Counted from the stretch's first letter, positions 2,010 to 26,022 are shown. The stretch is 43,800 nt of DNA from an uncultured Chthonomonas sp. (GCA_903885605.1 CAISJD010000107.1:1-43800), one strand, 5' to 3'. The notes: a model not told the origin generated them from the sequence alone. Program-made: numbers and translations.

Positions 2010-2855
2010 TCATATCGCTTGGAAAGGTACTGTGTCATGAGAAGGATATTGGTTGTCCTGCTGATGTGAGTCGCGGTGGTACTCGGCGCATCGCCGAGCG
2101 CGACGGCGGGAGCTGGAGCGGGCAAGCGGGTGCCGGTCATCACTTTGGCCAGTCTTACGACCACTACCGCGACGCCTGGCCTGCGGGTCAGAGCCGCCGA
2201 TGGCCGCTTCCAAGCTCTCTGTCGATGCCGATAGCGCACGGGCGAACGCTGCGTACTCGGCGTCGCTACGCTTGGCCTCTGTGAGCAGAGCGGCGCAATC
2301 AGCGTGCTCGGATGCGAGCAGGGCGAGTGCGGCTAGCCGCGTTACACTACGGCTTCTGTGGGTCCGCAGGTCAGGCCGGTTCAGCCCCAGGGTGCGGACC
2401 GTCACCTCGCCGCGCGGCGTCCGAGGTGCGACGGTTGTGAGGCCCGCCACGGGGTCGAACACGAAGTACAGGTGGTCGCTAGGGTCATCGGAGCATGGGT
2501 TCAGAAGAGGACCACCGGCGTCAGCCTCGGGGAACAGGTCGCCCTTGAACTCCGGGCCGTTACACCGGCCGCACGCAAGCAGCAGGTTGTCCCAGCAGAA
2601 GGCGAGGTCCCGACGTTTGCTCACCGGGCGATAGTGCTCGATCTGCGAATAGCCCACGTGCTTTATCTCGCTCTCGCAGTAGGCGCATTTGCCGTGGAAC
2701 GCCTCCTCCAACGCAGCCCTGATCTGCTTGTGCCTGACCTTTGCGAAGGCGGCTTCCCTGGCCTTAACAGTACTTGCATCAGCCACGGCCTTGTCCCAAT
2801 CCGCCTTCTTTCCCTCCAGGAGGGCTGGCTTCGTACCTCGATCTACCCTGATCAT
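2010..2855 (-). CDS. HNH endonuclease of a Septu-like system, PtuB-type, with abnormal tail
   Basis: The HNH/zinc-finger nuclease signature is clear: a C-x2-C pair at residues 57/60, IEHYRP with the catalytic-type His at 74, then N-L-L-L-A-C-G-R-C-N with Cys at about 95/98. This arrangement is typical of PtuB, which in Septu defence is the nuclease partner of the ATPase PtuA. The gene overlaps the upstream ATPase gene by four bases, so the two should be translationally coupled. Residues about 1-220 look like a normal family member. After GGSD the sequence changes abruptly to an Arg/Ser/Gln-rich low-quality tail (RARRCAEY and similar) of about 60 residues that looks like readthrough into unrelated DNA. 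The original stop may have been lost by a small deletion or rearrangement. The core could still be active. Confidence 0.8.
   Translation of the reverse strand: MIRVDRGTKPALLEGKKADWDKAVADASTVKAREAAFAKVRHKQIRAALEEAFHGKCAYCESEIKHVGYSQIEHYRPVSKRRDLAFCWDNLLLACGRCNGPEFKGDLFPEADAGGPLLNPCSDDPSDHLYFVFDPVAGLTTVAPRTPRGEVTVRTLGLNRPDLRTHRSRSVTRLAALALLASEHADCAALLTEAKRSDAEYAAFARALSASTESLEAAIGGSDPQARRRGSGRKTGQSDDRHPLARSSSRRRARRCAEYHRDSHQQDNQYPSHDTVPFQAI
2037..2234 (+). pseudogene. 5' fragment of an exported-protein gene, interrupted by in-frame TGA
   Basis: A GGAAAGG Shine-Dalgarno (about 2021-2027) sits nine bases before an ATG. The frame reads MRRILVVLLM, TGA, then VAVVLGASPSATAGAGAGK. If the TGA were TGG (Trp), this would be a textbook signal peptide with an Ala-x-Ala cleavage region. 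The frame then stays open to a TAG at 2232. The fragment lies antisense to the abnormal tail of the PtuB-like gene. I infer the remains of a chromosomal or older accessory gene, truncated where the island genes were joined and inactivated by a nonsense change. Chance cannot be excluded for so short a sequence. Confidence 0.35.
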
Positions 2856-4177
2856 TGCAGCCTGCTGCGCAGCACCTGGTCGATCTTGGCCTCAAGGGAC
2901 CCGGGTTCGGGCGGGCCACCGAATGGCCTGGCCTCGTCCATGAACAGGGAGAGCTGCGTCCACTCGCACTCCTCATCACGGCTCCGCCTCGCGCCCTTGA
3001 CGACCAGATGGTCATATCGGTCGATCTTCGCCTGCGTGGCGGGCGAATAGGGGGAGACCGCGCCGAACGCCTCGCTCTGCAGGATGCGATCGACACTGAG
3101 CGCCGAGACGTTGGGCACTGCCTCCACTTCGGCGCGGCCGTCGCGTAACCGGAACCGGACGGTCTGCGCAGTGTCGCCGGCGCCGGCTGCGATGAGCGGG
3201 CTGTGGGTTGCCACGATGAACTGCAGGCCTGGGAACTGCTCCTGCAGCCACTGGGCGATCTGCCGTTGCCAAACCGGGTGCAGGTGTATGTCCAGCTCAT
3301 CGATCAGGACGACGCCTTCCTCGTGCAGAGGGTCGTCGCTGTTCGGAAACGCCTGTATAAGCCGCCACACGAGGTCGCCGGCCAGGGCCAGTACGCTGCG
3401 GTAGCCGTCACTGAGGGCGATGGTGGCGACCGACATGCCGTTAGTAATGAAACAGATCCGCCCATGTGGTGTCACCTGGTCAAACCGCACGCCGTCCGGC
3501 AGCACCTTGTTGATGGCAGCTACTCCCAGGTCGTACTGACGCCGGGCCGTATGGTCCTGGTCCTTTGCGACGCGGTAGTCAAGGTAGACCATCCATCGCT
3601 CAAAGGCGGAGAGGGGCTGGTCCTCGTCGAACTGCGTGCTGAAGTTGGTGAAGCGGGCGGGCTGCTCCAGCGACGGAACGATCACCTGGCTCGACCGCGT
3701 GAGCCTTCGGAATGCGCCGTAGCCAACGGCGAACCAACCGCCGCCCGTCGAGGTAAAGGCATTCTGGCGGAGCCACGAGAGCCGCTTCTCAACCGACTCC
3801 ACAATGGCCGGTTCCGTGTACTGCCGGTTCCGGACCGATACCGGCTTCGACCCTGTAACGAAGTAGGTGTAGCCGAACGCCCGCGTGACCTTGCCGGTGC
3901 CGTGCTGTCCGGGGTCGTTGTCGCCCTGGTGGATGCGCCCGCGGAGCGTGCCGTACTCGTCCTCGCTGCGGAGCCACGCCACCGGCCTGGGCAGGAGCTT
4001 CTGCGCCCCCTCGGGCCCAGCAAGGAGAAGTCCCAGCGCCTGGAGGGCTATGCTCTTGCCGCCGCCGTTCTCGCCGAGCAGAGTGACCCATCGGTAGGGC
4101 TGTCGGGGCTTGCCGAGCTTGATCGTGACATCGTCAAAGCACTTGATGTTGCGGATCTGTAGCTCCTCAACCCACAT
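2852..4177 (-). CDS. AAA/ABC-type ATPase of a Septu-like system, PtuA-type
   Basis: An SMC/ABC-like ATPase of 441 residues. The N-terminus LQIRNIKCFDDVTIKLG is the usual opening of this OLD/RecF-like class. Walker A is GENGGGKS at residues 35-42, Walker B with the following glutamate and D-loop is VVLIDELDIHLHP near 286-298, and the switch histidine is in ATHSPLI shortly after. The next gene, overlapping by four bases, encodes an HNH nuclease, which is the gene order of Septu (PtuA-PtuB). PtuA is known to assemble into an oligomeric scaffold that restrains PtuB until nucleotide levels fall during infection. No reverse transcriptase or msr/msd-like RNA is seen beside it, so the retron that uses the same effector pair is unlikely. 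A 15-bp palindrome about 60 bp upstream may be its operator. Confidence 0.82.
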   Translation of the reverse strand: MWVEELQIRNIKCFDDVTIKLGKPRQPYRWVTLLGENGGGKSIALQALGLLLAGPEGAQKLLPRPVAWLRSEDEYGTLRGRIHQGDNDPGQHGTGKVTRAFGYTYFVTGSKPVSVRNRQYTEPAIVESVEKRLSWLRQNAFTSTGGGWFAVGYGAFRRLTRSSQVIVPSLEQPARFTNFSTQFDEDQPLSAFERWMVYLDYRVAKDQDHTARRQYDLGVAAINKVLPDGVRFDQVTPHGRICFITNGMSVATIALSDGYRSVLALAGDLVWRLIQAFPNSDDPLHEEGVVLIDELDIHLHPVWQRQIAQWLQEQFPGLQFIVATHSPLIAAGAGDTAQTVRFRLRDGRAEVEAVPNVSALSVDRILQSEAFGAVSPYSPATQAKIDRYDHLVVKGARRSRDEECEWTQLSLFMDEARPFGGPPEPGSLEAKIDQVLRSRLQ

Positions 4178-5652: not shown

Positions 5653-7125
5653 CTACCGGAGTGGACGAACGCCACCCTTCCTGCCGAGACCGAACGCAAT
5701 CCGGTAAACGTCCGGAACCTGTATGCGCCCATCAAGCAGGCGGAGCACCACACCGAGGTCCGCGAGATCTGCCAGTACGCCCGGCGGGCCGTCGTCAAGG
5801 CGTCTCGGCGGAAGCTTGACGAGCGTCGGCCCGAAGCTCCGATCTCGCAGATGCGCCAGGGTCTGGTTCTCACTCCATATCTGCGCGATCTCGCTCTCAT
5901 GGCATGGGACCGTAAGCCTGCCCTTCAGCGGCAGCATAAGGTCGTTGACCCAGGGATAGTCCTCCCGCGTGATCTCCTCAACGCGAATACGTGAGGCCTC
6001 GCGAACGCCGGCTTCAATACCTCGGAAGTCAAGGGCGTACGGCCAGTCGCTGGGTGGCAGTATCGCGCATGCATACCGAAGGGCAGCCATGAAGCTACGG
6101 GGGCTGACCTCGTCACGCCCGTCCAGGAGGTGGTTTGGAAGCCAGGTGTATGGAAACCCGCGCTTGTGACCGCTAGGCCCCGATGCCATCGTCGGCCCGG
6201 CGATGGCATGGAAGACCCGCCGTTGCTCGCCCTCATCGGTCCGAAGGTGCGCCGGTACCACCCAGGCATCGCCTGCCCGCCCGTCGTCATCGAAGAGGCT
6301 GCGCCTCGGGCCGCAAGCAGTCCTCGCAAAGTATCCACCGTGCGCGGGCGTGCTGCCGATGCACTGGTACAGCAGGGCGTATAGGTCGGCGCGCCGCCAC
6401 GTGAGGTCGACTTTGGTTGCCAGCAGCTTTGATGCGTCGGGAAACAGAAAGACCTCGCGGTCCTCGCGCATATCCGGCCGAACGAACAGCTTGAGACGAA
6501 CTGATCTCAGGGCTCGCAGGTCCAGGGCCAGCTGGAAGAGTGCACGGGCTAGTGGGCGGATGGCGGGCCAGTCGTCCGCCAGCCTGTCAAGTGCATCAAA
6601 CATCACGACATGGGTCGTGCCGGATGCCGTTAGGTCTGCGTCCCTGTCGGCCAACAGACGATCAAAGGCCTCCGTGTTGCTTGATACCCAGGCGACGCGT
6701 GCCTCCCAGTCCCGCATCCCGACGAGGTCGGCCAGTTCGAGGTGGGTGCCGACCACGGTCCGCCAAATCATGCGCGGGTTGAACGTCGGCACGAGCGCTG
6801 CGAGCACGTCCTTTGAAGGCGCAAGTGGAAGACCAAGCCCGGCGCCGAAGCCCTGCGAGGTGCGTGTCGTATCGCTGAGTCCCGCTTCGGGAAACGCTCG
6901 CATGACGAACGCTCTATGCTCCGGCGAGCACAGGGCCGCCCACCAGAAGCTCTTCCCGGACCCGCGTATGCCCTCGACGATCACTGCATCAGGACGAACC
7001 GCCTTGACGTGGCTCGGCGGCACGTAGGTGAACACTGGGGCGCGGCTCGGTTGAGCCCCTGACTGGTCGTTGTCCGGCAATGCGTCGAGCAGGGCGCACC
7101 GTATTACCAGCGGGTCAAGATTCAT
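5653..7125 (-). CDS. P-loop ATPase, third gene of the HEPN-KGGVGR set
   Basis: A 490-residue NTPase. Walker A is GIRGSGKS at residues 52-59 and a Walker B-like strand VVMFDALD is at about 173-180, followed by a region resembling STAND/AAA ATPases (LFQLALDLRALRSVRLKLFVRPD). The C-terminal third contains helical segments and ends with a strand-rich stretch, DLGVVLRLLDGRIQVPDVYRIAFGLGRKGG, that looks like a winged helix. The ATG at 7125 overlaps the stop of the ParA-like gene by 11 bp; a GTG at 7137 is an alternative. With the two upstream genes it forms a tight operon. The family is not one I can name. By context I infer a nucleotide-dependent sensor or effector-control subunit of a conflict system; no nuclease motif was seen in it. 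Confidence 0.7.
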   Translation of the reverse strand: MNLDPLVIRCALLDALPDNDQSGAQPSRAPVFTYVPPSHVKAVRPDAVIVEGIRGSGKSFWWAALCSPEHRAFVMRAFPEAGLSDTTRTSQGFGAGLGLPLAPSKDVLAALVPTFNPRMIWRTVVGTHLELADLVGMRDWEARVAWVSSNTEAFDRLLADRDADLTASGTTHVVMFDALDRLADDWPAIRPLARALFQLALDLRALRSVRLKLFVRPDMREDREVFLFPDASKLLATKVDLTWRRADLYALLYQCIGSTPAHGGYFARTACGPRRSLFDDDGRAGDAWVVPAHLRTDEGEQRRVFHAIAGPTMASGPSGHKRGFPYTWLPNHLLDGRDEVSPRSFMAALRYACAILPPSDWPYALDFRGIEAGVREASRIRVEEITREDYPWVNDLMLPLKGRLTVPCHESEIAQIWSENQTLAHLRDRSFGPTLVKLPPRRLDDGPPGVLADLADLGVVLRLLDGRIQVPDVYRIAFGLGRKGGVRPLR

Positions 7126-8479
7126 CTGATTCAGCACCTAAGCCCGCGAATGACCGGACCATACCCAGTACAGGGCCAAATGCAGCGTCAATGTCCGCGC
7201 GGTCCACTATTCCAGCGCGGATCAGGGCTGTGTCGAACTCCTGGAACCGGGCACTCCACTTGATGCGCCGGGGATAGTGCGGCGCGTCCTCATCCTTGAG
7301 ATCGTAGGACCCCCCCCTTGGCTGATCCAGATGCGGGGCGCCAGACTCGGCGACGATCTCATCGTAGAGCGTGTCTCGGAACAAGTCGTACGATCTCTCC
7401 AGAAAGCGTTGAGCCCTGGCCACCTGATCGGACTCAGGCAGCATCGACTGAACCATCGCGAGGCGCCACCTGACCTCAGTGGCGACGGCCGGGTGCCGCG
7501 ACCAGTGCTGGAACAGCATCCTGTATGCCTGCCATGTCGAGGCGGTGTCTGCGGCGAACAACAGCGTCCAATCGGCGTACCTCACTATGCTGGCCGCAGC
7601 GATGTCGTGGATGCCGGCACGGCTGTCCAGCAGTACCACGTCGGGCTTAACCGAGGCCTCAAGCGCTGCGAGGAGTTTGCCGACGCGTTGTCCAAAGCCG
7701 GCGGGGCCATCCTCTTCCGGGACGTCGCCATACACACGCGACAGCTTCGCCACATAGTGTGGGTCGTCACGGCCGGCTGAGGGCGCGACCAGGATCGTTC
7801 CCGCCATGCCGGCAGACAACGGGCTCTCGGCGGTCATCCTATTGATGAGTGCATTGCCCTGCCCGACGGCGTCCTCCGCAAACCAGTCAATCAGGCCGAA
7901 GTCAGGCATCCGATGGTTGTCAAGCATCGGGTCGTCGCCAAGCAACAGGCCTGCCAGGCCCGGCGATTCAAGGTCAAGGTCCACCACGAGAACCTTCTTG
8001 CCCGCACTTGCCAGGTCATAGGCACACATGGCGACGGCCGTTGAGCGACCAACACCGCCCTTGATGCCGTAGAACACCAGCCGGGGTATGCGGCTGCCAG
8101 CGCGTTCCACTTGGCTGGAGCGCAACCAGTCCTGCCCTCCGATCGACCGATCCAGCATGAGCACACTTGGTGAATCGATAGTTTGTCGGTACGTACCAAT
8201 GTCAGGATTTGAAAAGACCGCGTCGGGATCGTACAGGTCATCACGAGCCAGGAGGCCCGTGTTGCCCATTGCCGCGTGGTTACCTGCGTTCGCAAGGGCC
8301 GCCGTCAACAGAGCTACAACCTCCGCCGAAATGTTGGCGCGGTTCATGTTGACGGCTACATGCAGCCGGCCCCCGAGGTCACAGATCACCACAGGCTCAT
8401 TGGCGAGCAGTGTCCGGATCTTGGCGGCTGCGGCGGCGATCGCTTCGACCGCCTGCCCGTACATTACCGGCTGCGTCAT
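7115..8479 (-). CDS. KGGVGR-variant ParA/MinD-like ATPase
   Basis: A 454-residue SIMIBI-class ATPase. The deviant Walker A reads YGIKGGVGRSTAVAMCAYDLA (Lys at about 140), in which the usual KGGVGKT is changed to KGGVGRS. The rest of the ParA core is present: VLVVDLDLESPG (switch I region), DVVLLDSRAGIHD, then TLLFAADTASTW. An N-terminal extension of about 130 residues (MTQPVMYGQAVEAI onward) is unfamiliar. ATPases with this motif change are known from multi-gene biological conflict systems, where they sit beside effectors; they are not chromosome-partitioning proteins. The start overlaps the stop of the HEPN-like gene as ATGA, so translation is coupled. There is no centromere-like repeat or ParB nearby, which argues against a plasmid partition role. 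Confidence 0.8.
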   Translation of the reverse strand: MTQPVMYGQAVEAIAAAAAKIRTLLANEPVVICDLGGRLHVAVNMNRANISAEVVALLTAALANAGNHAAMGNTGLLARDDLYDPDAVFSNPDIGTYRQTIDSPSVLMLDRSIGGQDWLRSSQVERAGSRIPRLVFYGIKGGVGRSTAVAMCAYDLASAGKKVLVVDLDLESPGLAGLLLGDDPMLDNHRMPDFGLIDWFAEDAVGQGNALINRMTAESPLSAGMAGTILVAPSAGRDDPHYVAKLSRVYGDVPEEDGPAGFGQRVGKLLAALEASVKPDVVLLDSRAGIHDIAAASIVRYADWTLLFAADTASTWQAYRMLFQHWSRHPAVATEVRWRLAMVQSMLPESDQVARAQRFLERSYDLFRDTLYDEIVAESGAPHLDQPRGGSYDLKDEDAPHYPRRIKWSARFQEFDTALIRAGIVDRADIDAAFGPVLGMVRSFAGLGAESDES

Positions 8480-8922
8480 TTCGGTACTCCATCCACCGTG
8501 GCGGCGTCCATCAGGCTCATGGCGCCCTTGGCTGCTTCCTGCCACCGGGCGAACGCAACCGGCAGCACGGCGGCATCGCAGTACCTGTGATCAGTCATCC
8601 AGCCCTGAATGTTGGCGACCACTGGCGCGGCAAGTGCTGAGTAGCGGGCTGCATTGGGCCCGGTAAACGTGACTGATTGCTGAGCGATGAGCATCGCCAG
8701 TTTATCAACATGCAATTTTATGTTCGATGGTATGTGTATATCGGATATCTTGTCGTAGTTTAATCGCATCAGCAGCCATTTTAGCGAACACTCAACAGCA
8801 AATCCGTACAGCTGACCCGCATTGGCCGTTCTAAAGTCGGCCTGCAGGTACTCGGCATCGGCGTAGTGACGGCGTGCCGCCATGCCGAAGTCCACATTGC
8901 CTACCGGGTAGTCATACGGCAT
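8476..8922 (-). CDS. HEPN-like helical protein, first gene of the KGGVGR set
   Basis: A 148-residue, mostly helical protein. The stretch AARRHYADAEYLQADFRTANAGQLYGFAVECSLKWLLM has the pattern of HEPN proteins, in which the first helices carry HxxDA and GxAxExxLK. The C-terminal GWMTDHRYC segment fits the usual final HEPN helices (often W-x4-RY). A canonical catalytic R-x4-6-H was not clearly identified, so it may be a non-catalytic member or use a divergent motif. Start: ATG at 8922 with GGAGGG five bases upstream; a GTG two codons earlier is less likely. Bases around 8700-8770 are more AT-rich than the neighbouring genes. HEPN RNases are frequent toxins in defence systems, which suggests this is the effector of the triad. 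Confidence 0.6.
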   Translation of the reverse strand: MPYDYPVGNVDFGMAARRHYADAEYLQADFRTANAGQLYGFAVECSLKWLLMRLNYDKISDIHIPSNIKLHVDKLAMLIAQQSVTFTGPNAARYSALAAPVVANIQGWMTDHRYCDAAVLPVAFARWQEAAKGAMSLMDAATVDGVPK

Positions 8923-9013: not shown

Positions 9014-12000
9014 TCACCCGCCCTTCCTATCCACCAACCCCCTCGCCTTCTCCTCGCCGTCGAACAGCACGACGTAGCGCCAGCCGCCTTCAATCGGCTG
9101 CACCGCCTGCACGACGCCCACCTTGCCTTTGACGGAGATGCGGGCGCCTACCTTTGTCCTGGGCGCCGGACGGGCCGGCGGCGCTACCAGCTCAAACGCC
9201 TCCGCAGCCGAGCCGCCCTCCTTGCCGCCGTCGCCCTCCCCACTCGCCACTCGCTCACTCCCCACTCGCCCACTCCCTACTCGCTGCCCCTCCCCACTCC
9301 CCACTCGCTCACTCCCCACTCGCTGCCGTTCCCCACTCGCCACTCGCCCACTCGCTACTCGCTGCCGTTCCCCACTCGCCACTCGCCACTCACCACTCAC
9401 CTCGACCCCCTCGTACGCCACGCCGCTCTCAACAGCGCGCTGCATGGCGTCGTAGACCCGCAGGATCTGCTCCTTGGTGCGGTAGCGGCCGTGGGCGGCC
9501 AGGTCCTTCCGCTTGACGATGGGGAAGGTCTCCATGATGTAGTCCACGTCGTCGCGGCCGATGCCGTAGAGGTGGAAGAAGGCCGCGTCCAGCTCTGCGC
9601 GAAGCAGGAACCGCCGCTCCTCGTCCCACACGAAGGGCGGGCCGTTGTATCCCAGGTCCCGGGCGAAGGGTGCCAGGTCGTGGGCGGTGTAGGTTAGCTC
9701 GAGGACGCGGGGTACGAGCCATGAGGCTACAGAGGCATTGGGGTGCCACCGGGCCGGGGAAGTAACGACGCTAGGAGGCAGGAGAGGCAGTTGTTTCAGA
9801 TAGAAGAATGTAAAACTCGTGTTGGCAACCTTCTGCCTTGCAATGTAATCGAATATGAATGCATTGAGCGCAGCAATGACGAGGCACCGAGCTTGAGAGC
9901 CGTCCCGCGGGTGGATCAGCGGCAGCTTGTGGCCAGCAGGAACGGCAGGCACAATACTGGCAATCATTGTGCGCATATTAGTTGGACTGGTAACATCAAA
10001 AAATCCCAGATTAGCTGCAACATCGTGGTTCTGAGTGGCATCATATTCCTCGCGATGTATCCAGCTCATCGGCATCGCCAGCCTGTCAGGCCTCCTCTTT
10101 TCGTCTGACGAGATAGCCCGTGGCTGGTTCTGGCGCGTGACTGCCGTCTCGCTCTTCACGACGTCGGCCGCACGGTGGTCGAACGCAGCTGTCATCTTCG
10201 CCTCGTAGAGCGGGAGCCACTCCCCGGCTTGCACGGGCTTGCCGTCCACCTTCGCCGCCTTCGGCACGTTCCACCGGTTGCCGACGAGCGCGCCGCCGGC
10301 CGCCTCCAGCTCCTCACGGGTGCGGAAGAGCCCGGAGTCGGACGTCATATTGAACAAGCCCTGCTTGAAGCCGACACCCCACGGGTTGCCGTTCGGGTCG
10401 CCCTCGCGCACCAGCACGGGCACGCGGCGGTAGATCGCCCTGGTGATCTCGGCGTCGCGCTGCGTGCGGAAGACCGGGCAGGTGCGGGTGTTCGGGTTCA
10501 GGAGGGCAATGTCGTCGGCGCTGAGCGTGAAGACCTTGCCGGGCAGGTGCAGGTCCGTGGGGCGGTGGCAGAAGAAGGCGAAGGTCGGCGGCGAGTGGGG
10601 AGTGGCGAGTGGCGAGTGGGGAACGGCGGTGAGTGGGGAGCGGCGAGTGGCGAGTGGCGAGTGGGGAGCGGCGAGTGGCGAGTGGCGAGTGGCGAGTGGG
10701 GGAGCGGGGGCTCGCATGGTTAGCAGGCTGAACTTGAAGCTGGCATGGACCCCGGGGAATAGCCGGCGGTCGCCGGTGGCGGTTCTCTTCCTTCGGCGCT
10801 TGGGTGGGGCCTCTTCTGTGGGCTCTTCTTCGGTCTCGTCGTCGGCGTCTCGCATGCCGTTCTCGAAGTCGTAGAGCGAGACGAGGGCATTCCGGGTCAT
10901 CAGGTCCGCGAAGAAGTGCTTGGTGGTGTCGTCGGTGGCGATGCCGGAGGGGACGACGATGCCGGCGCGGCCCGCCTCGCCCACCAGGTCGCGCTCCAAC
11001 TCGGAGAAGACGGCGTAGGTGTTGATCCTGCCGCGGCCACACAGCGGGAACCGGCCGGAGTTGCCGCAGAAGGCTCCGGTAGCGTCGTGCAGTCGCTTCT
11101 CCTTTGTGAAGTCCTTGTGCAACTCGGGGTCATTGCGCTCAAGGGCAGCAATCAGGCGCTTGCGTTCCGCACCGGTCTTGGCGGTGGCGATATTCGGCGC
11201 CCGAACCGCGAAGAACTCCTTCTCCTTCAGTTCGGTGTGCTCCCAGGGCGGGTTGCCCAGCACCACGTCGAACCCGCCGCCGCCGGCCTCCAGGTCGAAG
11301 AGGTCGGGCCAGGCGACCTGGGGGTGGAAGAAGCGGAGCCGTTCGGCCTCGGCCCGGATGGCGGCGTCGACTTTGGGCTCCAGCTTCGTGCCGCTGGTGG
11401 TGGCCCAGAGCGTTGCCGTGGTGACCTCGGGCTTGCCGGGCCCCTTGGGCAGCGTGAAGGCGGCGCACCAGGCATCGCAGGTGAGGCGGCGCATCTCGGC
11501 GGCCCGCTGCAGCTCCCGGAAGCGGCGCTCCTTCTCCTTGACGCCGGCCAGGCTCTCGTCGCCCATCTGCTCCAGGGCGGCGGCCGTGCGGCGCAGGTTC
11601 TGGCCGGCGAAGGCCTCCGGGGCGAAGAGGTTGCCCTGGCCCTCGCGCTCGGACTTGTTCCGCTTCTTCAGCGCGGCGCAGGCGGCCTTGTCGTCGCCCT
11701 CGATGGCGTCGTAGGCGCCGTCGGGGATCCCCTCGGCCACCAGCTCCGCAGTGGCGCCCAGCAGCGAGTTGCCTGCACAGATGTGGTGATCGAGGAACGA
11801 GAGCGGCTTGCCGGGCTCCAGCGCCTCCATCCAGAGGGCCACCTTGCAGAGCTCCGCGGCCATGGGGTTGAGGTCCACGCCGTAGAGGCACCGGCCGATG
11901 ACGTCACGCAATGCCCGGCGCGTCTCCGGCGGCGCCGGCTCCTCGTCGCCCGTCCGCACCTGCGCCAGCCTCCGAGCCAACCGGTGCGCCGCCGCGATGA

Positions 12001-14194
12001 GGAAGTGCCCGGAGCCGACGGCGGGGTCGATGATGCGGAGGGAGAGGAGGGCGTGGGAGGCGAGTAGCGAGTAGCGAGTAGCGAGTGGAAGGGGCGGTGA
12101 ATGGTGAGTGGGGAGTGGGGAGTGGGGAGTGGGGAGTGGCGAGTGGCGAGTGGCGAGTGGGGAGTGGTGAGTGGTCAGGGGTTGCGGGCTCGCAGGCTGC
12201 GTTCCAGGGCCACCAGCTGCCGGCCGAGGATGGTTGTCTCCTGCAGAATCGGCTGGATCGCCTCCTCCGTGCAGAGCCCCACGTCCGCGCTGATGATCAG
12301 ATGCGTCTCCAGTTCGGTCCTGCTGCCGTTGGCCGTCCGGAGGAACTGCAGCAGCTCCGCCGGGTAGCGTCTGCCCCAGCCCTCGGCGATGTTGGCCGGG
12401 ATCGAGGCGGCCGCCCTGCGGATCTGCGAGGTCATCCCGAAGGCCTCCTCCCGAGGATACGACCTGGTCAGCGTGTAGACCAGCTTGCAGATCGCCCGTC
12501 CCCGCCGCCATACCTCGAGATCGCGATAGCTCTCGATTTCCACGCACCCCACCTCCTCTCGGTGTCTCACCACTCACCACTCGCCACTCACCACTCTCCG
12601 CATCCACCACCACTCGCCACTCACCACTCTCCGCATCCACCACCACTCGCCACTCACCATTCCCCCTTCGCCACTCACCACTCGCCACTCGCCACTCACC
12701 ATTCTCCCTTCGCCACTCACCACTCGCCACTCGCCGCACTTCCGCCAGCCTCTCCTCCACCACCGGGTCCAGCGCGGTGTCGAGTAGGCATTGGATGAGG
12801 CAGTCGGGGGTGTAGTAGCTGCCGGTGGATTTGCGCTCGTTGCCGGAGGCGCCTTTGAGTTCGAAGTGGGAGCCGGAGGAGTCGAGGTCGGGGTGGAGCT
12901 CGAGGAGGGATTCGTAGACGCTGCCGAGCTCTTCGGAGCCCAGGTTCTTGTAGTCGACGCGGGCGCGGCGGCCTCCCTCTTCGGTGACGGCCAGGCATCG
13001 GACGGCCTGGAGGAGGTCGGCGTTGGCGAGGTGGGCGGCGTCGAGGTCCGGGGCGGTCTGGTCGGAGAAGAGGAAGCCTCCGAGGGCGGGGAGGCCCAGC
13101 TCGGGGCATCCGCCGTCGCGGCTCAGCATCTGGAGGACGAGCTTGAGCTGGGCGTAGAGGTCGTGGTGGCGCGAGCTGCCATGGAGCCGCTCGGCCAGGA
13201 GGCGCAGGCGCTGGGTGGAGTAGTAGGCGTTGTAGAGGCGTCGTGCGGCGTCGGGCGCCTCGGGGTGCAGCAGCACGTTGCGGTCCTCGGCCACGGAGAG
13301 GAAGAGGAGCCGATAGACGAGGCGGAGGAGCTGGCGGTAGTACTCCTGCTTGTCCAGGGCGCCGCTTCGCACGCGATCCTGCAGGGCGGTGTTGGCCGGG
13401 TGCCGCAGGAAGCCCTGGCCGAGGCTCTCGATGGAGGCCTGCACTCCATCGCGCAGGCTGTCGAGGGCGCGTTTACCCTCCTCCACGGCGGTCTGCGTCC
13501 ACTGCTCCAGCCGGCACTCCTCGGGGCGCGGCGCGGCGACGCTGGTCTGGTGGCAGAGGAGGTAGAAGAGGCGGAACTCATCGTAGAGGCGGCCTTCGAA
13601 AATCGCTTCTAGGTCGAACTCCACCATGGCCTGGCGGGAGAGGCTCTGGCTGTCGCGGAGGATGCGCCAGCGGAGGCCGTTGCTGACGAAGCCCCAGAGG
13701 TGTTCGTCGCTGCCGTTGAGGAGGAGCTGAACGATGCCGTGGGGGGTCATGCGGGCTGCGCCGGCGGCGCCGGGCGTCCGGGCGTCGAGGTCCAGGCCGC
13801 AGCCCACGAGGTGGATCGGCGTGCGCCCGGCCATATGGGAGACGGGGAAGTCGCGGTCGTCCAGCCGCACCCCCTGGCTTCGGAGGGGATCGAGGGAGCC
13901 GTAGTCCAGCGCCTTCATGATCTGGTTGAGCCACCGTGTGCGGGTCATGGCGGCGCCCTGGTCGCCGGGCGCCATCTGCGACCGATGGTGCTGGAAGCTC
14001 TGCCACGCGGGCTGCAGGCCGTTCCATGCGCGGCTGGCGGCCTCGCGGATGCGCTCGCCACTGAGGCCGTAGTCGAGGGGCTTGAGCCCCGGCAGCCCGG
14101 GGTCCTCGGCATGGATGCGCACGAGGATACTGGGCGGCAGGATGGCGCCTTCGGTGCGGACGGCGGAGAGGCCGAGGGTATCGCGTCGCGCCAT
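9014..14194 (-). CDS. Eco57I/DrmMI-like DNA adenine methyltransferase with low-complexity insertions
   Basis: A class I SAM-dependent N6-adenine methyltransferase. The host sequence has an N-terminal helical domain, then GSYYTPDCLIQCLLD, motif I DPAVGSGHF (Asp at about residue 723) and the catalytic NPPW motif in DVVLGNPPWEH (about 980). Further on are regions usual for large type IIG/DISARM MTases and a short C-terminal SH3-like stretch (GKVGVVQAVQPIEGGWRYVVLFDG). The start overlaps the stop of the SNF2 gene (TGATG). Three insertions break it: a 675-bp element just before motif I, a minisatellite after TMRAPA, and another near the C-terminus. All keep the frame open, giving 1726 residues, far longer than usual. 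Whether the enzyme is active is uncertain. A lower-GC patch (about 9770-10080) suggests exchange of part of the C-terminal recognition region. Its partners suggest it marks self DNA in a DISARM-like system. Confidence 0.8.
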   Translation of the reverse strand: MARRDTLGLSAVRTEGAILPPSILVRIHAEDPGLPGLKPLDYGLSGERIREAASRAWNGLQPAWQSFQHHRSQMAPGDQGAAMTRTRWLNQIMKALDYGSLDPLRSQGVRLDDRDFPVSHMAGRTPIHLVGCGLDLDARTPGAAGAARMTPHGIVQLLLNGSDEHLWGFVSNGLRWRILRDSQSLSRQAMVEFDLEAIFEGRLYDEFRLFYLLCHQTSVAAPRPEECRLEQWTQTAVEEGKRALDSLRDGVQASIESLGQGFLRHPANTALQDRVRSGALDKQEYYRQLLRLVYRLLFLSVAEDRNVLLHPEAPDAARRLYNAYYSTQRLRLLAERLHGSSRHHDLYAQLKLVLQMLSRDGGCPELGLPALGGFLFSDQTAPDLDAAHLANADLLQAVRCLAVTEEGGRRARVDYKNLGSEELGSVYESLLELHPDLDSSGSHFELKGASGNERKSTGSYYTPDCLIQCLLDTALDPVVEERLAEVRRVASGEWRRENGEWRVASGEWRRGNGEWRVVVDAESGEWRVVVDAESGEWRVVSGETPRGGGVRGNRELSRSRGMAAGTGDLQAGLHADQVVSSGGGLRDDLADPQGGRLDPGQHRRGLGQTLPGGAAAVPPDGQRQQDRTGDASDHQRGRGALHGGGDPADSAGDNHPRPAAGGPGTQPASPQPLTTHHSPLATRHSPLPTPHSPLPTHHSPPLPLATRYSLLASHALLSLRIIDPAVGSGHFLIAAAHRLARRLAQVRTGDEEPAPPETRRALRDVIGRCLYGVDLNPMAAELCKVALWMEALEPGKPLSFLDHHICAGNSLLGATAELVAEGIPDGAYDAIEGDDKAACAALKKRNKSEREGQGNLFAPEAFAGQNLRRTAAALEQMGDESLAGVKEKERRFRELQRAAEMRRLTCDAWCAAFTLPKGPGKPEVTTATLWATTSGTKLEPKVDAAIRAEAERLRFFHPQVAWPDLFDLEAGGGGFDVVLGNPPWEHTELKEKEFFAVRAPNIATAKTGAERKRLIAALERNDPELHKDFTKEKRLHDATGAFCGNSGRFPLCGRGRINTYAVFSELERDLVGEAGRAGIVVPSGIATDDTTKHFFADLMTRNALVSLYDFENGMRDADDETEEEPTEEAPPKRRRKRTATGDRRLFPGVHASFKFSLLTMRAPAPPLATRHSPLAAPHSPLATRRSPLTAVPHSPLATPHSPPTFAFFCHRPTDLHLPGKVFTLSADDIALLNPNTRTCPVFRTQRDAEITRAIYRRVPVLVREGDPNGNPWGVGFKQGLFNMTSDSGLFRTREELEAAGGALVGNRWNVPKAAKVDGKPVQAGEWLPLYEAKMTAAFDHRAADVVKSETAVTRQNQPRAISSDEKRRPDRLAMPMSWIHREEYDATQNHDVAANLGFFDVTSPTNMRTMIASIVPAVPAGHKLPLIHPRDGSQARCLVIAALNAFIFDYIARQKVANTSFTFFYLKQLPLLPPSVVTSPARWHPNASVASWLVPRVLELTYTAHDLAPFARDLGYNGPPFVWDEERRFLLRAELDAAFFHLYGIGRDDVDYIMETFPIVKRKDLAAHGRYRTKEQILRVYDAMQRAVESGVAYEGVEVSGEWRVASGERQRVASGRVASGERQRVGSERVGSGEGQRVGSGRVGSERVASGEGDGGKEGGSAAEAFELVAPPARPAPRTKVGARISVKGKVGVVQAVQPIEGGWRYVVLFDGEEKARGLVDRKGG
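9238..9400. repeat. heptanucleotide minisatellite block 1
   Basis: Tandem and interspersed 7-bp units (plus strand CCACTCG/CCACTCC and variants) inside the 3' end of the methyltransferase gene. In the mRNA sense they read GAGTGGC-type units and encode SGEWRVASGER-like peptide. Because 21 bp holds three units and seven codons, the peptide is the same in all three frames. Confidence 0.9.
10591..10702. repeat. heptanucleotide minisatellite block 2
   Basis: About sixteen units, plus strand GAGTGGC/GAGTGGG/GAGCGGC, inside the methyltransferase gene. In the mRNA the complement is read, giving LATRHSP-type heptapeptides between TMRAPA and FAFFCHRPTDL. Its orientation is inverted relative to block 1, 1.2 kb away, so the two could pair in DNA or RNA. 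Confidence 0.9.
12061..12174. repeat. heptanucleotide minisatellite block 3 (left arm of the element)
   Basis: Plus-strand units GAGTAGC, GAGTGGG, GAGTGGC and GAGTGGT. The outermost four units carry GAGTAG in place of GAGTGG. It ends directly at the stop end of the four-helix-bundle gene. Confidence 0.9.
12175..12543 (-). CDS. four helix bundle protein (23S rRNA intervening-sequence protein family)
   Basis: A 122-residue helical protein with the family hallmarks: IESYRDLEVWRRGRAICKLVY at the N-terminus (usual 'f.dL.vw..a..l...vy'), FGMTSQIRRAAASIPANIAEGWGR in the middle, then FLRTANGSRTELETHLIIS and a final helix. This is the S23/IVP family of small helical proteins, also related in fold to Avd of diversity-generating retroelements. 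The start is a GTG at 12543 with a strong AGGAGGT seven bases upstream, so it can be translated by itself from inside the methyltransferase transcript, in a different frame on the same strand. It is enclosed by inverted minisatellite arms. Members encoded in 23S rRNA insertions bind or tolerate RNA hairpins; an RNA-related role here is inferred only. Confidence 0.88.
   Translation of the reverse strand: MEIESYRDLEVWRRGRAICKLVYTLTRSYPREEAFGMTSQIRRAAASIPANIAEGWGRRYPAELLQFLRTANGSRTELETHLIISADVGLCTEEAIQPILQETTILGRQLVALERSLRARNP
12567..12735. repeat. heptanucleotide minisatellite block 4 (right arm of the element)
   Basis: Plus-strand units CCACTCG/CCACTCA. Two higher-order repeats are visible: a segment of about 33 bp containing CTCTCCGCATCCACCACCA occurs twice, and one containing CATTCnCCCTTCGCC occurs twice. 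In the host protein they encode SGEWRVA-type heptads with VVVDAE spacers. Confidence 0.9.
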
Positions 14195-16964
14195 CAGTTT
14201 TTGCCTCCGTAGGGCTGGTACAGGTAGACCCCGATGATGTCCGGTTCGCCCTGCACTCGGACCTCGCGGGCGGCGTCGGCTCCGGCCAGGGCCTTGCGGA
14301 CGCGGCGGTGGGCGGCCAGGGCCTTCTCGGCGCGCTCCTCGGCGCACTGCTGCAGGCGGGGCCTCAGGCTCGGCAAGCCCGCCAGGATGGCGCGCACGAA
14401 CTGCTGGGCCGCTTCGGGCGTCAGGTTGGCCCTGGGTCTGGCGGCCAGCAGCCGCTCGGCCTCCTCGGGCGTGAGCCACTGCGGGTTGGCCGGGGTGCCG
14501 CGGAAGCCCACGGTGACGGCCTCCTCGGCCAGCATCTCGCGGCGAGCGGAGACGATCTGGAAGCGGCAGCGGAGCACGAGCAGCGTGGTGAGGACGGTGA
14601 CGGCGTCGGTGGGCGTGACGCCGCAGCGAGCGGCCACGGCGCCGGGGTCGCCGTCAAGCGCAGCGTCGGCCACGTAGCCGGCCAGGGCTTCGACGAACGG
14701 ATGGGTTCGCGTGAGGTGCAGGGCGCCCCGGGGCGGAGGCATCTCGAAGGTGGCGGCGAAGGGCTTCTTGTACTGGACCGCGTCGCGCAGGGCCAGGGGG
14801 GCGTCGTTCAGGTTCAGGGTGAAGACGGGCTTGTTCTCGGCGGTGCCCTTGTGCGCCAGCACCGCGTCCAGGACGAAGCGGCGGAGGTCCAGCGGGGAGC
14901 CCAGAGCCTGCCGGACCGCCTCCAGCTCCGGGGCGACCTCCTCGGCCTTGATGGCGTGCTGCGCAAAGAGCGTGCGGGAGCGCTTCTCCCTTTCGGCGGC
15001 GCGGTCCCATTCATCGTTGAGGCCGGCGACCTCGGGCAGGCCGAGCTCGGAGGCGAACGAGAGCTGGGCCGTGTCCTGCGACCCCTTCATCAGGAGCGAC
15101 TGGAAGATCGCCTCCAGCACCTTCTCGCTGTTCACGGGCACCGGCACGGAGATGCCCAACGAGCCTCGGATGCGCTTGTGCTTGGCGATGAGGATGCCGA
15201 GGACAATGCCGTCGACGGGATTGTCCTCGCCGTAGTAGGTCACCACGCGGACCTTCGGCGCAACCTGGCCGAAGCGGTCGACGCGGCCTTCGCGCTGCTC
15301 GTGGCGGGTGGGGGACCAGGCGAGGTCGGCGTGGATCACGGCGTCGAACCACTCCTGCAGGTTGATGCCCTCGGAGAGGCAGTCGGTGCAGACCAGCGCC
15401 CGTTTGGCATGCTGCGCCAGGTCGGATATCCGGCCTTCGCGCTCGTCGTGGGGGAGATCGCCGGTGACACAGGCCACCTCCACGCCCTTCATGGCGGCGC
15501 GGAACTCCTCGGCGATGTACTCGGCGGTGGCGATGTACTTGCAGAAGACGATGGGGCAGACGCCCTCGGCGGTGAGGCCCTTGACGAGGGTGATGAGGCC
15601 CTGCAGCTTCCTGTCCTTGGCCCCGCGCAGGCCCTCGGCCATGCGGGCGAACTGAAGGAGGCGCCGCTGCGAGGCCGTGCCGGCGACCTCGGTGTCCGCC
15701 GCGGGCGAGACATCGAAGCCCTCGCCGTTCTCATCATCGGTGAGGTCGAGGACGGCCCTTCGGCGGAGCTCCTCGGCCTCGGGCGCCTCCTCGGCGTCGG
15801 GTATGCCGGCCCGGCTCTTCAGCGTGGCCACGGCCGCGGCAGGGCTGGAGCTGATGCTGCGCAGGAGGGCCAGCGCCGACCACCAGCGGATGCGCTGCTG
15901 GAACTGGGTGCCCGACTTGTCGGCCACGACCTCGCGGGCGTACCGGACCGCCGCATCGAGGAGCTGCCGGTACTCGGGATCGAGGCGGTAGGTGACGTCC
16001 TTCTCGAGCCTCTCGGGGAAGGGGGTCTCCTCGCCGAGGTCCTTGCGCCGGCGCTGGACGAAGTGGGCGGCCAGGCGCTCGCGGTGGGCCTTCCGGTGGT
16101 CGCCGCTGAGGTCCTCGGGCAGGTCCTTGAACTCGGGCTTGAGCAGCGAGAGCATGGAGCGGAAGGCGAGCTCGTTGCCGCTGTGCGGGGTGGCGGTGAC
16201 GAAGAGCATGTGGCGGCGCGGGTCCGCCGACAGCCGCTGGAGCAGGTGGAAGCGGAGCTGGGAGCCCATACTTCCCTGCGTGCAGGTGTGCGCCTCATCG
16301 ACGATGATGAGCGGCGGGCAGGTGCGGACGAAGTCGTCGCGGCGCGTCTGCTGCTTGATGTAGTCCAGCGAGACCACGGTGACCGGGAAGTGCTCGAAGA
16401 CCGAGGCGCCGGGCGGTACCGCCCGTTCGAGCCGGGTGACCGTGCTTGGCAGGACCAGGACCGGCTCCAGGTTGAACTTGCTGCTGAGTTCGCCCTGCCA
16501 CTGCTCGGCCAGGTGCGGCGGGCAGAGGACGCAGAGGCGATCGACCTCGCCTCGGGCCAGCAGCTCCTTGGCGATCAGGGCGGCCTCCACCGTCTTGCCG
16601 ATGCCCACGTCGTCGGCGACGAGGAGCCGCACCGGCGAGAGGCGGAGGGCCATCAGAAGCGGCACCAGCTGGTACGACCGCGGCTCGACGGCGATGCTGC
16701 CCAGGGAGCGGAACGGCCCCGACGAGGCGCGGAAGCCGAGCCGCACGGCATCGCGGAGCAGGCGGCCCGAGACGGAGTCGCCCACGCGGCGCGGATCCGG
16801 CAGGGCGAACGTGGCGGGCTCGACCTGCTCCAGCGCCGTGACGAGTGCCGTGGCCTCCAGATCGGTGCCGCCCAGGGGCTTGATGTGCAGGACAGATGCG
16901 GTGGACTCCGGCAGGACCACCCACTCGCGCCCACGGGCCCGGACCAGCGAACCGGCTGCGAAGC

Positions 16965-16968
<4 letters not shown>
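14194..16968 (-). CDS. SNF2-family helicase, DrmD-like
   Basis: A 924-residue superfamily 2 translocase. Motif I is DDVGIGKT (119-126), motif II is VDEAH (DEAH at 224-227), motif III lies in FVTATPHSGN, and the C-terminal helicase lobe ends with HEQREGRVDRFGQ (motif VI, about 557). The N-terminal about 90 residues precede the first RecA lobe, and the C-terminal about 300 residues are a family-specific domain without a known enzymatic motif. Among defence proteins it most resembles DrmD of class 1 DISARM, and more distantly DpdE. It overlaps the DUF1998 helicase gene upstream (ATGA) and the methyltransferase gene downstream (TGATG), so three proteins are made in a coupled way. Expected role: translocation on invading DNA. 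Confidence 0.82.
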
Positions 16969-22076
<5,108 letters not shown>

Positions 22077-22634
22077 GGGTGTGCCTCCACTCAACTTGGC
22101 GTGCTACAGAGGGCGCAGGGCGCCACTGGCGTCCCGGCGTACACATTTCGGCACAGGTGTAGTAGGTTCCTGCACGGATGGGCCAGAACCTTCCGATCCC
22201 CAAGCGGGCGCCGGTAGCGGCACCACGGCCGCGTGCCGGCGGCGCCGGAGACCAGTTTGCGAGAGGCGCTCTCCTCGCGTGCGCGCGCGCATGCACACTT
22301 CGGGTCGGCCGGATGCCGACTGCAGTCGGGCCGAGGAGCGGCGCATTGGCCGCCGCTGCGATCTCAAACTAACGATTGTAGTGATAAGTCGTCCGTTACG
22401 ACATGGGTCGTTTCGAGATAGTCATTTCTACTCGCCCGTGGCCGGCCCGAAGGGGTCGTGCTCGTCGCAGTAGTAGCCGATGGTCGGGGTTGCCCGGCAA
22501 CGGCCGTGGGCGCAGACTCGCAGTGGCGCGGACGGTGCCGGCCGGACTGGCGCGCGACGACGCGACGACGGCTGCTCTCCTGGCGTTTCAGGCCGGCATG
22601 GGCGGTGGCGCCGCCGCCCATGCGGTCAAGGTTA
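22077..22634. other. gene-free region upstream of the helicase operon
   Basis: I find no gene. On the minus strand a TACAAT hexamer at about 22374-22379 could be a -10 element for the operon. Two overlapping small hairpins (GTCGT/ACGAC arms at about 22388-22402 and ACGAC/GTCGT at about 22398-22411) lie just upstream of it and might bind a regulator. Otherwise it is GC-rich DNA with open frames of shadow type. Confidence 0.4.
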
Positions 22635-25029: not shown

Positions 25030-26022
25030 TCATTTGGCGCCCTTCTTCATGAGGCGCTCGACGGGGCTGTACATGCGATGCTGCGTGGCGACGTCGGCGT
25101 CTGCGATCTGTGAGTAGCGGCGCGTCTGCTTGAGGTCGGTGTGGCCGTGCATCTTCTGCAGCGTGAACGTGTTGCCGCCGGCGCGCAGGAAGGAGATGGC
25201 GGCATAGTGCCTGGCTGTGTGCGGAGAGCAGCGGACGCCAGTGATGCCGGCCTCTTCGCCGAGGCGCTCCACGATGTGGTAGAGGGCATTGGTGGTGAGG
25301 TGCCCGCCGCGCTCCGACGCGAAGACGGGTTCCGAGGAGTCCCGGCGCCCTGTCTTCAGGTACGCCCAGAGAGCCCGTGCAACCGCGGCGCCGAAGCATA
25401 CCTGCCGCCTCTTGCCGCCCTTGCCCTCGACGGTGGCGGTGCGCTGCGAGAGGTCCAGGTCGCCGATGGTCAGGCCGCACAGCTCGGATGCACGCAGGCC
25501 CGTGTCGAAGAGCATGAGGAGCGCGGCGTAGTTCCGCGGGCCCAGCTTCGACTCCTTGGCAGCGTTGAGCAGCGCGTTGGCCTGGTCGTCGGTGAAGGGC
25601 TGCACTTCGTCGGGGCGGTCGACCACGGCGCCGACGCGGGCCATGGGGTCTACGCCGAGCTGGCCGTCCTTGACGAGCCACCGGAAGAACGTGCAGAGGT
25701 GGCGGCGGTAGGTGGCGATGGTGCCCGGCTTGGGCGCCTTGAACCGGTTGACGTTCTTGGCGTTGCCGAAGCGACCGTCAGCGTCACGGTGGCCGCGTGT
25801 GAGGTAAGCCATGAAGGCGCGGAGTTCGTTGGTGCCGCACTCCTGCACGCCCTGTTCCTTGAGGAACCAGAGCAGCTTGCCGGTGACGAGGCGGCGCAAC
25901 GCGATGGTAGCGGGGGAGTGACTGCTGATCTCACAATCGAGCAGCCAACAGGAAACGTGCCGATCCAGTTCGTCGATCGGCACGAAGTCCCGCGTTGGGG
26001 AAGTAAGTTGCCAGTTCTGCAT
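25030..26022 (-). CDS. tyrosine recombinase/integrase (XerC/D-like)
   Basis: A 330-residue site-specific recombinase with an N-terminal SAM-like core-binding domain (about 15-120) and a complete catalytic domain. The catalytic set is visible: Arg177 in TGLRASELCGL, Lys in EGKGGKRR (about 201-204), HTAR with His268 and Arg271, His294 in KMHGHTDL, and the nucleophile Tyr303 in QTRRYSQ. AGGAGGG precedes the ATG at 26022. Codons 3-8 overlap a 16-bp sequence repeated 64 bp upstream, and codons 8-42 are duplicated in inverted orientation at the left edge of the window. It stands at the right end of the 26-kb accessory region and probably moves it, or part of it. Confidence 0.93.
   Translation of the reverse strand: MQNWQLTSPTRDFVPIDELDRHVSCWLLDCEISSHSPATIALRRLVTGKLLWFLKEQGVQECGTNELRAFMAYLTRGHRDADGRFGNAKNVNRFKAPKPGTIATYRRHLCTFFRWLVKDGQLGVDPMARVGAVVDRPDEVQPFTDDQANALLNAAKESKLGPRNYAALLMLFDTGLRASELCGLTIGDLDLSQRTATVEGKGGKRRQVCFGAAVARALWAYLKTGRRDSSEPVFASERGGHLTTNALYHIVERLGEEAGITGVRCSPHTARHYAAISFLRAGGNTFTLQKMHGHTDLKQTRRYSQIADADVATQHRMYSPVERLMKKGAK
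25899..26003. repeat. right copy of the 105-bp inverted repeat
   Basis: Reverse complement of bases 1-105 without a mismatch. It lies inside the 5' coding part of the recombinase gene. Confidence 0.9.

Follow-up and report, generated by a model that had tools for sequence, protein, structure and literature searches.

A gene of the S23 family between inverted heptanucleotide arms, in frame inside a defence methyltransferase gene: a probable mRNA-resident relative of the 23S rRNA intervening sequences

Intervening sequences (IVSs) are known from bacterial 23S rRNA, for instance in helix 45 of Coxiella burnetii, where the IVS is closed by a terminal stem of 28 bp, encloses an S23p open reading frame (ORF) with GACAGAT heptamers next to it, and is a substrate for cleavage by RNase III (PMC4990558). 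Heptanucleotide families, i.e. G-rich tandem arrays with a 7-nt unit, have been described with the unit GGGAATC in Xanthomonas and GGGGA(C/T)T in Nostoc; X. campestris has 70 close inverted GGGAATC pairs, and a four-helix-bundle or intervening-sequence gene is not mentioned in that report (PMC4692102). In the open-access literature (subscription papers were outside the scope) we found no paper that connects S23 genes located outside rRNA with heptad arms. Here we describe an element that combines both features in a stretch of 43,800 nucleotides from an uncultured Chthonomonas sp. (GCA_903885605.1 CAISJD010000107.1:1-43800), which we call the window and which corresponds to contig C107 in a draft genome of 5.6 Mb (G000). 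Judged from sequence comparison, the element is likely to be an mRNA-resident relative of the 23S rRNA IVS, inserted in frame in a methyltransferase gene, with the host gene read through and the S23 protein made from its own ribosome-binding site. The host gene and the parts of the element are the following:

9014..14200, minus strand: host gene, Eco57I/DrmMI-type adenine methyltransferase, frame open throughout (PF07669, E=6.5e-13; DrmMI, E=8e-58)
12061..12735, minus strand: whole insert, arm - S23/IVP gene - inverted arm, 675 bp (from the linker length relative to orthologues and the fold z-score)
12566..12735, minus strand: upstream arm, G-rich heptads (GAGTGGN)n on the S23/host sense strand; the host frame encodes SGEWRVA-type repeats
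12551..12557, minus strand: Shine-Dalgarno sequence AGGAGGT of the S23 gene
12175..12543, minus strand: S23/IVP four-helix-bundle gene, GTG start at 12543 (longest ORF 12175-12573; supported by PF05635, an AlphaFold2 model and structure 2gsc)
12061..12174, minus strand: downstream arm, C-rich inverted heptads; the host frame encodes ATRHSPL-type repeats
10590..10699, plus strand: solo heptad array, GAGTGGC on the plus strand; it lies in another linker of the host gene, and orthologues lack it
9231..9398, minus strand: solo heptad array close to the host C-terminus

The arms are imperfect 7-nt repeats in opposite orientation (arrays of period 7/14/21 according to Tandem Repeats Finder) that surround a complete PF05635 (S23/IVP) gene and are complementary over 92 nt at 80%. 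They include an exact 20-bp inverted match (12134-12153 / 12678-12697), the sole 20-bp inverted pair at most 1 kb apart in the window. Since the longest inverted match in 2,000 mononucleotide shuffles had a mean of 9.9 and a maximum of 23, this match taken alone is not overwhelming evidence; the long arms, with their tandem arrays and the fold z-score given below, are the stronger evidence. The encoded protein is a member of the S23/IVP family: the ORF at 12175-12573 (minus strand) matches PF05635 with E=6.8e-33 (113.5 bits, curated cut-off 33.8), and the AlphaFold2 model has four helices at a predicted local distance difference test score of 96. An earlier note on this DNA, made from the sequence alone, had reported the 20-bp match, the inverted heptads around a complete gene of the 23S-IVS protein family, its own AGGAGGT and GTG start, and an insert of about 675 bp that splits the methyltransferase just before motif I, is a multiple of three and leaves the host frame open; all of this is borne out. 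Overlooked had been the two solo arrays of the same unit and the fact that the genome has no such arrays outside this gene. Elsewhere in the genome a second clear S23 gene (L002, G000:C60:14558-14869) was seen around 1390-1900, intergenic between transporter-like genes, with short inverted GGGGTGAA-type repeats on its flanks; its branch in the S23 tree is very long.

In the host protein, the insert is placed between ...LDPVVEERLAEVRR and LLSLRIIDPAVGSGHF, just ahead of motif I. The linker between YYTP and motif I is 259 aa long in the window versus 35-39 aa in uninterrupted relatives; the segment is an insertion. Seven relatives (L033, L034, L035, L036, L225, L226 and L232) lack the insert at this linker; orthologues without it (L033 and L034 included) show 49-56% identity, the closest uninterrupted one being L033 with 56% in the methyltransferase region. 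L035 has no insert at the motif-I linker but carries an arm-S23-arm insert elsewhere, near its C-terminus. The idea of a conserved methyltransferase domain, named in the earlier note as a way in which its proposal could fail, was thus rejected, on the absence from the seven relatives and the low identity in the host frame.

The length of 675 bp is divisible by three and the host reading frame is unbroken. Across all nine methyltransferase-embedded S23 genes the host frame is open, as against 2-35% of S23 genes of matched GC content; at a GC content of at least 0.55 it is open in 8/8 embedded genes and 7/40 others (Fisher's test, p=1.7e-5). Because an excised segment would not need an open frame, translation of the host most likely continues across the insert, so that nothing would be spliced out and the enzyme would be longer by about 220 residues. 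The S23 gene keeps a constant +1 relation to the host frame, to which we attach no meaning: none of 172 S23 genes has the alternative frame open, so that the relation is forced. The S23 gene itself is under purifying selection, as codon comparison indicates. Divergence between the window and L142 in the S23 frame is concentrated at third codon positions (0.32/0.20/0.46), and among the window, L142, L097 and L061 identity is 0.31-0.39 in the host frame versus 0.54-0.68 in the S23 frame. These figures point to S23 as the selected product and to the host-frame reading as filler. A Shine-Dalgarno sequence of at least 5 nt precedes 6 of the 9 embedded S23 genes.

Nine S23 loci were found inside the METHYLTRANSFERASE family by tblastn of the host protein regardless of frame. 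Seven of these (the window, L061, L066, L097, L142 of a Polyangiaceae, L144 of a Phormidium and L145 of the Fibrobacteres) have the insert in the linker before motif I, and the others have it elsewhere in the methyltransferase, L101/L035 near the C-terminus and L159 (Chloroploca) before KSSGSYYTP; with its short upstream half, L159 is the one of the nine for which host continuity is least certain. Supported branches of the S23 tree force at least 4 changes of the methyltransferase-embedded label, indicating several separate insertions, and one subclade (the window, L097, L142 and L061) was found only in this enzyme. Heptad arrays were absent from all 34 methyltransferase loci without S23 (125 kb) and extra solo arrays occurred in 5 of the 9 with S23, the window included, from which it appears that the arrays require the S23 element, or come in together with it, and spread nearby. 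The same linker also houses unrelated inserts in other genomes, namely a DUF559 cassette (L228), an 18-aa repeat array (L227) and another insert (L244), and can thus be considered a tolerant site. The cassette in L228 (G258) is endonuclease-like (E=4.2e-34) and forms an in-frame fusion with SPSP/SGEGAGG-coding repeats at its borders. A second host family, a protein of roughly 400 aa, carries an arm-S23-arm insert in frame in L318 (G126) and L321 (G127); the L318 host copy had no Pfam match. Together with the other inserts in the linker, this family weakens the idea that the methyltransferase family of the window is the sole target.

The layout is widespread. We collected two samples of S23 loci by similarity to the PF05635 profile or to the window protein, 88 from the phylum of the window and 80 from many phyla with one genome per species (about 170 together), and aligned upstream and downstream flanks as inverted repeats with a score threshold of 16. 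Inverted arms were detected in 65% of the phylum set (cross-locus flanks 1.3%, shuffled 0.4%, direct orientation 3.4%) and in 50% of the all-phyla set (0.9%, 0% and 5%, respectively), so that the further arm-gene-arm loci, on whose existence the earlier note had made its proposal depend, exist widely. The unit is 7 nt long in 77 of 97 armed loci and G-rich on the S23 sense strand (G 0.39, C 0.14). Exceptionally long arms, with ACGGTGG units and an inverted score of 161.5, were observed on an S23 gene of the Planctomycetota (L198).

Although the unit varies from one locus to another, it tracks the protein. Pairs of S23 proteins with 70-80% identity share the unit in 83% of cases, pairs with 60-70% in 50% and pairs below 50% in about 2%, never in antisense, and in a Mantel test 1/500 permutations gave an association as high. 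Some unit-sharing pairs occupy one common genomic site, and the loci L143/L148/L151, like L144/L150, have common units without any flank similarity, from which we conclude that the arms belong to the element and are inherited with the protein. The window and the Polyangiaceae locus L142, for instance, both use GAGTGGC. No S23 relatives of the window gene were confirmed in IMG/VR and phage records.

The elements are found in operons and in sense orientation. Both neighbours were codirectional with S23 in 65 loci and both opposed in 5 (p=2e-14), orientation being judged by the longest ORF and remaining unclear in half of the loci. Recurrent sites, the flanking ORFs of which were identified by reading their sequence, were groES-groEL, nuoC-nuoD, sdhA-sdhB, gmk-nadD and argF-argG. 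Within one genus, six genomes have an arm-S23-arm element, built from a heptad particular to each, in a groES-groEL spacer of 468-574 nt; in five the spacer holds an S23 gene without clear arms, and in five it is 17-89 nt long and empty (scored empty from spacer length only). A second groES-groEL spacer (L277, G100:C1, near 4621920), of 141 nt, has inverted GCGTTAG/CTAACGC-type heptads without an S23 gene and resembles a deletion derivative. A location of the conserved-context loci inside 23S rRNA was rejected, these being protein operons instead; 15 sampled relatives contained no rRNA, and E. coli rRNA had no blastn match among the loci.

We propose the following picture. The element is a compact unit in which two arms of short tandem repeats, inverted relative to each other, flank an S23/IVP gene; it lies sense-oriented in a transcribed gene, the transcription of which it would borrow. 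Base pairing between the arms of the transcript would give a long hairpin whose loop holds the S23 ORF; the predicted fold of the window element has 121 end-to-end pairs and a z-score of -9.45, and none of 20 shuffles was as stable. The S23 protein would be translated in the +1 frame from its own ribosome-binding site and might recognise the repeats, RNase III could perhaps cut the hairpin, and the element may spread as a selfish passenger. The one in the window would have entered the linker of the defence methyltransferase before motif I, persisting there since its length and the host frame leave the enzyme readable. Several observations weigh against this picture. Clear arms are absent from 35-50% of S23 genes, and the protein of the Coxiella 23S IVS appears not to be made (PMC4990558). 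Arm mismatches on the sense strand comprise 89 G:U and 91 A:C, i.e. no G:U excess, so that selection for an RNA helix is not demonstrated and covariation at the RNA level, sought as a wobble bias, was dropped; the arms could also act as DNA or stay alike by gene conversion.

Four other explanations have to be considered. Precise, intron-like excision from the methyltransferase mRNA, giving an enzyme without the extra residues, would suit the very stable predicted hairpin and has a parallel in the excision of the 23S IVS by RNase III (PMC4990558); yet RNase III cuts without rejoining, which rRNA tolerates and a message does not, and the open frame in all nine hosts would not be needed if the segment were excised. 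The genome has no reverse transcriptase at the PF00078 level (RVT_1) and so shows nothing that would point to a group II intron; S23 is all that the insert encodes, and an Rfam ribozyme search, which covered 15 related loci, gave no match. We hold this explanation to be very improbable. Hardly more credible is a contingency switch, in which slippage of the heptads would toggle the frame of the methyltransferase (phase variation) and the S23 gene would be incidental. Phase-variable methyltransferases are well known, the heptad number differs among Coxiella strains (PMC4990558) and the same genes hold extra arrays, but all nine hosts are in frame, for which random states would give (1/3)^9 = 5e-5, the arrays are imperfect and go with the S23 gene, and S23 also occurs in housekeeping operons.

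That a hypervariable linker would collect any tolerated insert by chance, without a specific relation to S23, fits the unrelated inserts at the same site (L227, L228 and L244) and accounts for its tolerance, but not for the recurring arm-S23-arm layout, the correlation of arms and protein or the operon sites, and we consider it improbable as well. A transposable unit at the DNA level, in which S23 or a host recombinase would recognise the arms as terminal inverted repeats and RNA folding would be irrelevant, explains somewhat more: arms are co-inherited with the protein and common to L143/L148/L151 despite unrelated flanks, the groES-groEL site is both empty and occupied within a genus, and the arms lack a G:U bias. 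However, S23 as modelled has no nuclease or recombinase fold, the insert is without a transposase, the strict sense orientation is unexpected for an ordinary DNA transposon, and no target-site duplication was demonstrable with the empty sites at hand, which are not near-identical. We regard such a unit as unlikely. An mRNA-resident relative of the 23S IVS, read through by its host, thus remains the preferred reading, and of the more interpretive claims of the earlier note a part stands. Its mRNA counterpart of the 23S IVS is supported by the sense orientation in operon mRNAs and inside cistrons, with a tolerated insert of about 225 residues favoured and removal from RNA disfavoured by the open frames. 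Its mobile element has indirect support from the several independent insertions, the empty sites and the arms shared between unrelated flanks, but no movement was seen and no known recombinase is encoded. Its frame-neutral minisatellite holds in so far as an array of heptads without stop codons can leave every frame open; a unit of 7 nt, however, is not in itself frame-neutral, and only a total length divisible by three preserves the frame.

The host gene lies in a defence operon, in which its two neighbours are:

14194..16968, minus strand: SNF2-type helicase (DpdE/DrmD-like)
16965..22094, minus strand: DEAD/MZB helicase (DruE-like)

Downstream of the host gene the candidate defence proteins PDC-M28B and PDC-M28C are encoded; the surrounding defence island (window positions 5653-8545, 2010-4177 and 25030-26022) comprises PDC-M28B and PDC-M28C, a phage-type integrase, and an HNH protein whose neighbour is an AAA ATPase. 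Two genomes of the same genus gave no match to the methyltransferase, which suggests that the defence locus was acquired horizontally.

S23 proteins had no known function and bacterial heptanucleotide repeats no known origin; linking the two makes both open to experiment, since every S23 protein comes with a repeat of its own. This link also extends the 23S rRNA intervening sequences to mRNAs of central operons (groESL, nuo, sdh and arg) and of phage-defence enzymes, and provides an example of an enzyme gene that remains readable although a second gene, in a different frame, lies within it. For annotation, peptide repeats of the SGEWRVA/ATRHSPL type in large methyltransferases should be read as inserted elements, not as domains. 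Much more tentatively, and at present we would sooner doubt than accept it, S23/IVP genes with protein-matched heptad arms could form one large, largely undescribed class of selfish sense-strand mRNA elements of which the 23S IVS is a special case; the protein would recognise the hairpin of its own repeat for upkeep or spread, dispersed heptad arrays in Xanthomonas and cyanobacteria would be non-autonomous offspring, and some elements would be embedded in defence enzymes without breaking the frame, so that a single overlapping stretch would yield two proteins.

Compared with known systems, the protein resembles XCC0516 (2gsc), with 36-37% identity and a template modelling (TM) score of about 0.90 to the S23 model; XCC0516 and BT_0352 (2rld) are S23 family structures without known function. 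The Avd protein of diversity-generating retroelements (4dwl, 8ub7) has the fold in common with the window S23 (TM about 0.79 to the model, 14% identity), but the genome of the window has no RVT_1; mobility like that of these retroelements was rejected, the match being one of fold only. The heptad families of Xanthomonas and Nostoc, and the short tandemly repeated repetitive (STRR) sequences of cyanobacteria, are 7-nt arrays that occur partly as inverted pairs like here, whereas most are dispersed there. The window shares the tandem 7-nt unit with such STRR and GGGAATC-type repeats but not the genome-wide dispersal, arrays of the GAGTGGN unit being confined to this one methyltransferase gene in the 5.6 Mb. 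In L132, from the phylum of the window, GGGAATC arms surround an S23 gene, and the heptad families may be non-autonomous relatives of S23 elements. The 23S rRNA IVSs of Coxiella and also Leptospira have, like the window, an S23/PF05635 ORF between complementary, stem-forming termini and a transcribed host gene with a tolerant loop, in Coxiella also with heptamers beside the ORF, and the Coxiella IVS is 428 nt long versus a median of 512 nt for the elements in this analysis. They differ in that the host is rRNA there and mRNA here (a cistron or an operon spacer), with arms that are long tandem arrays and a preserved host frame; in that the Coxiella ORF appears degenerate, whereas S23 here is under purifying selection; and in that they are excised by RNase III, which the open host frame makes unlikely here. 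The window element, with the anatomy of an IVS but not its location, would thus represent a new variant of the 23S rRNA IVS that resides in mRNAs and operons.

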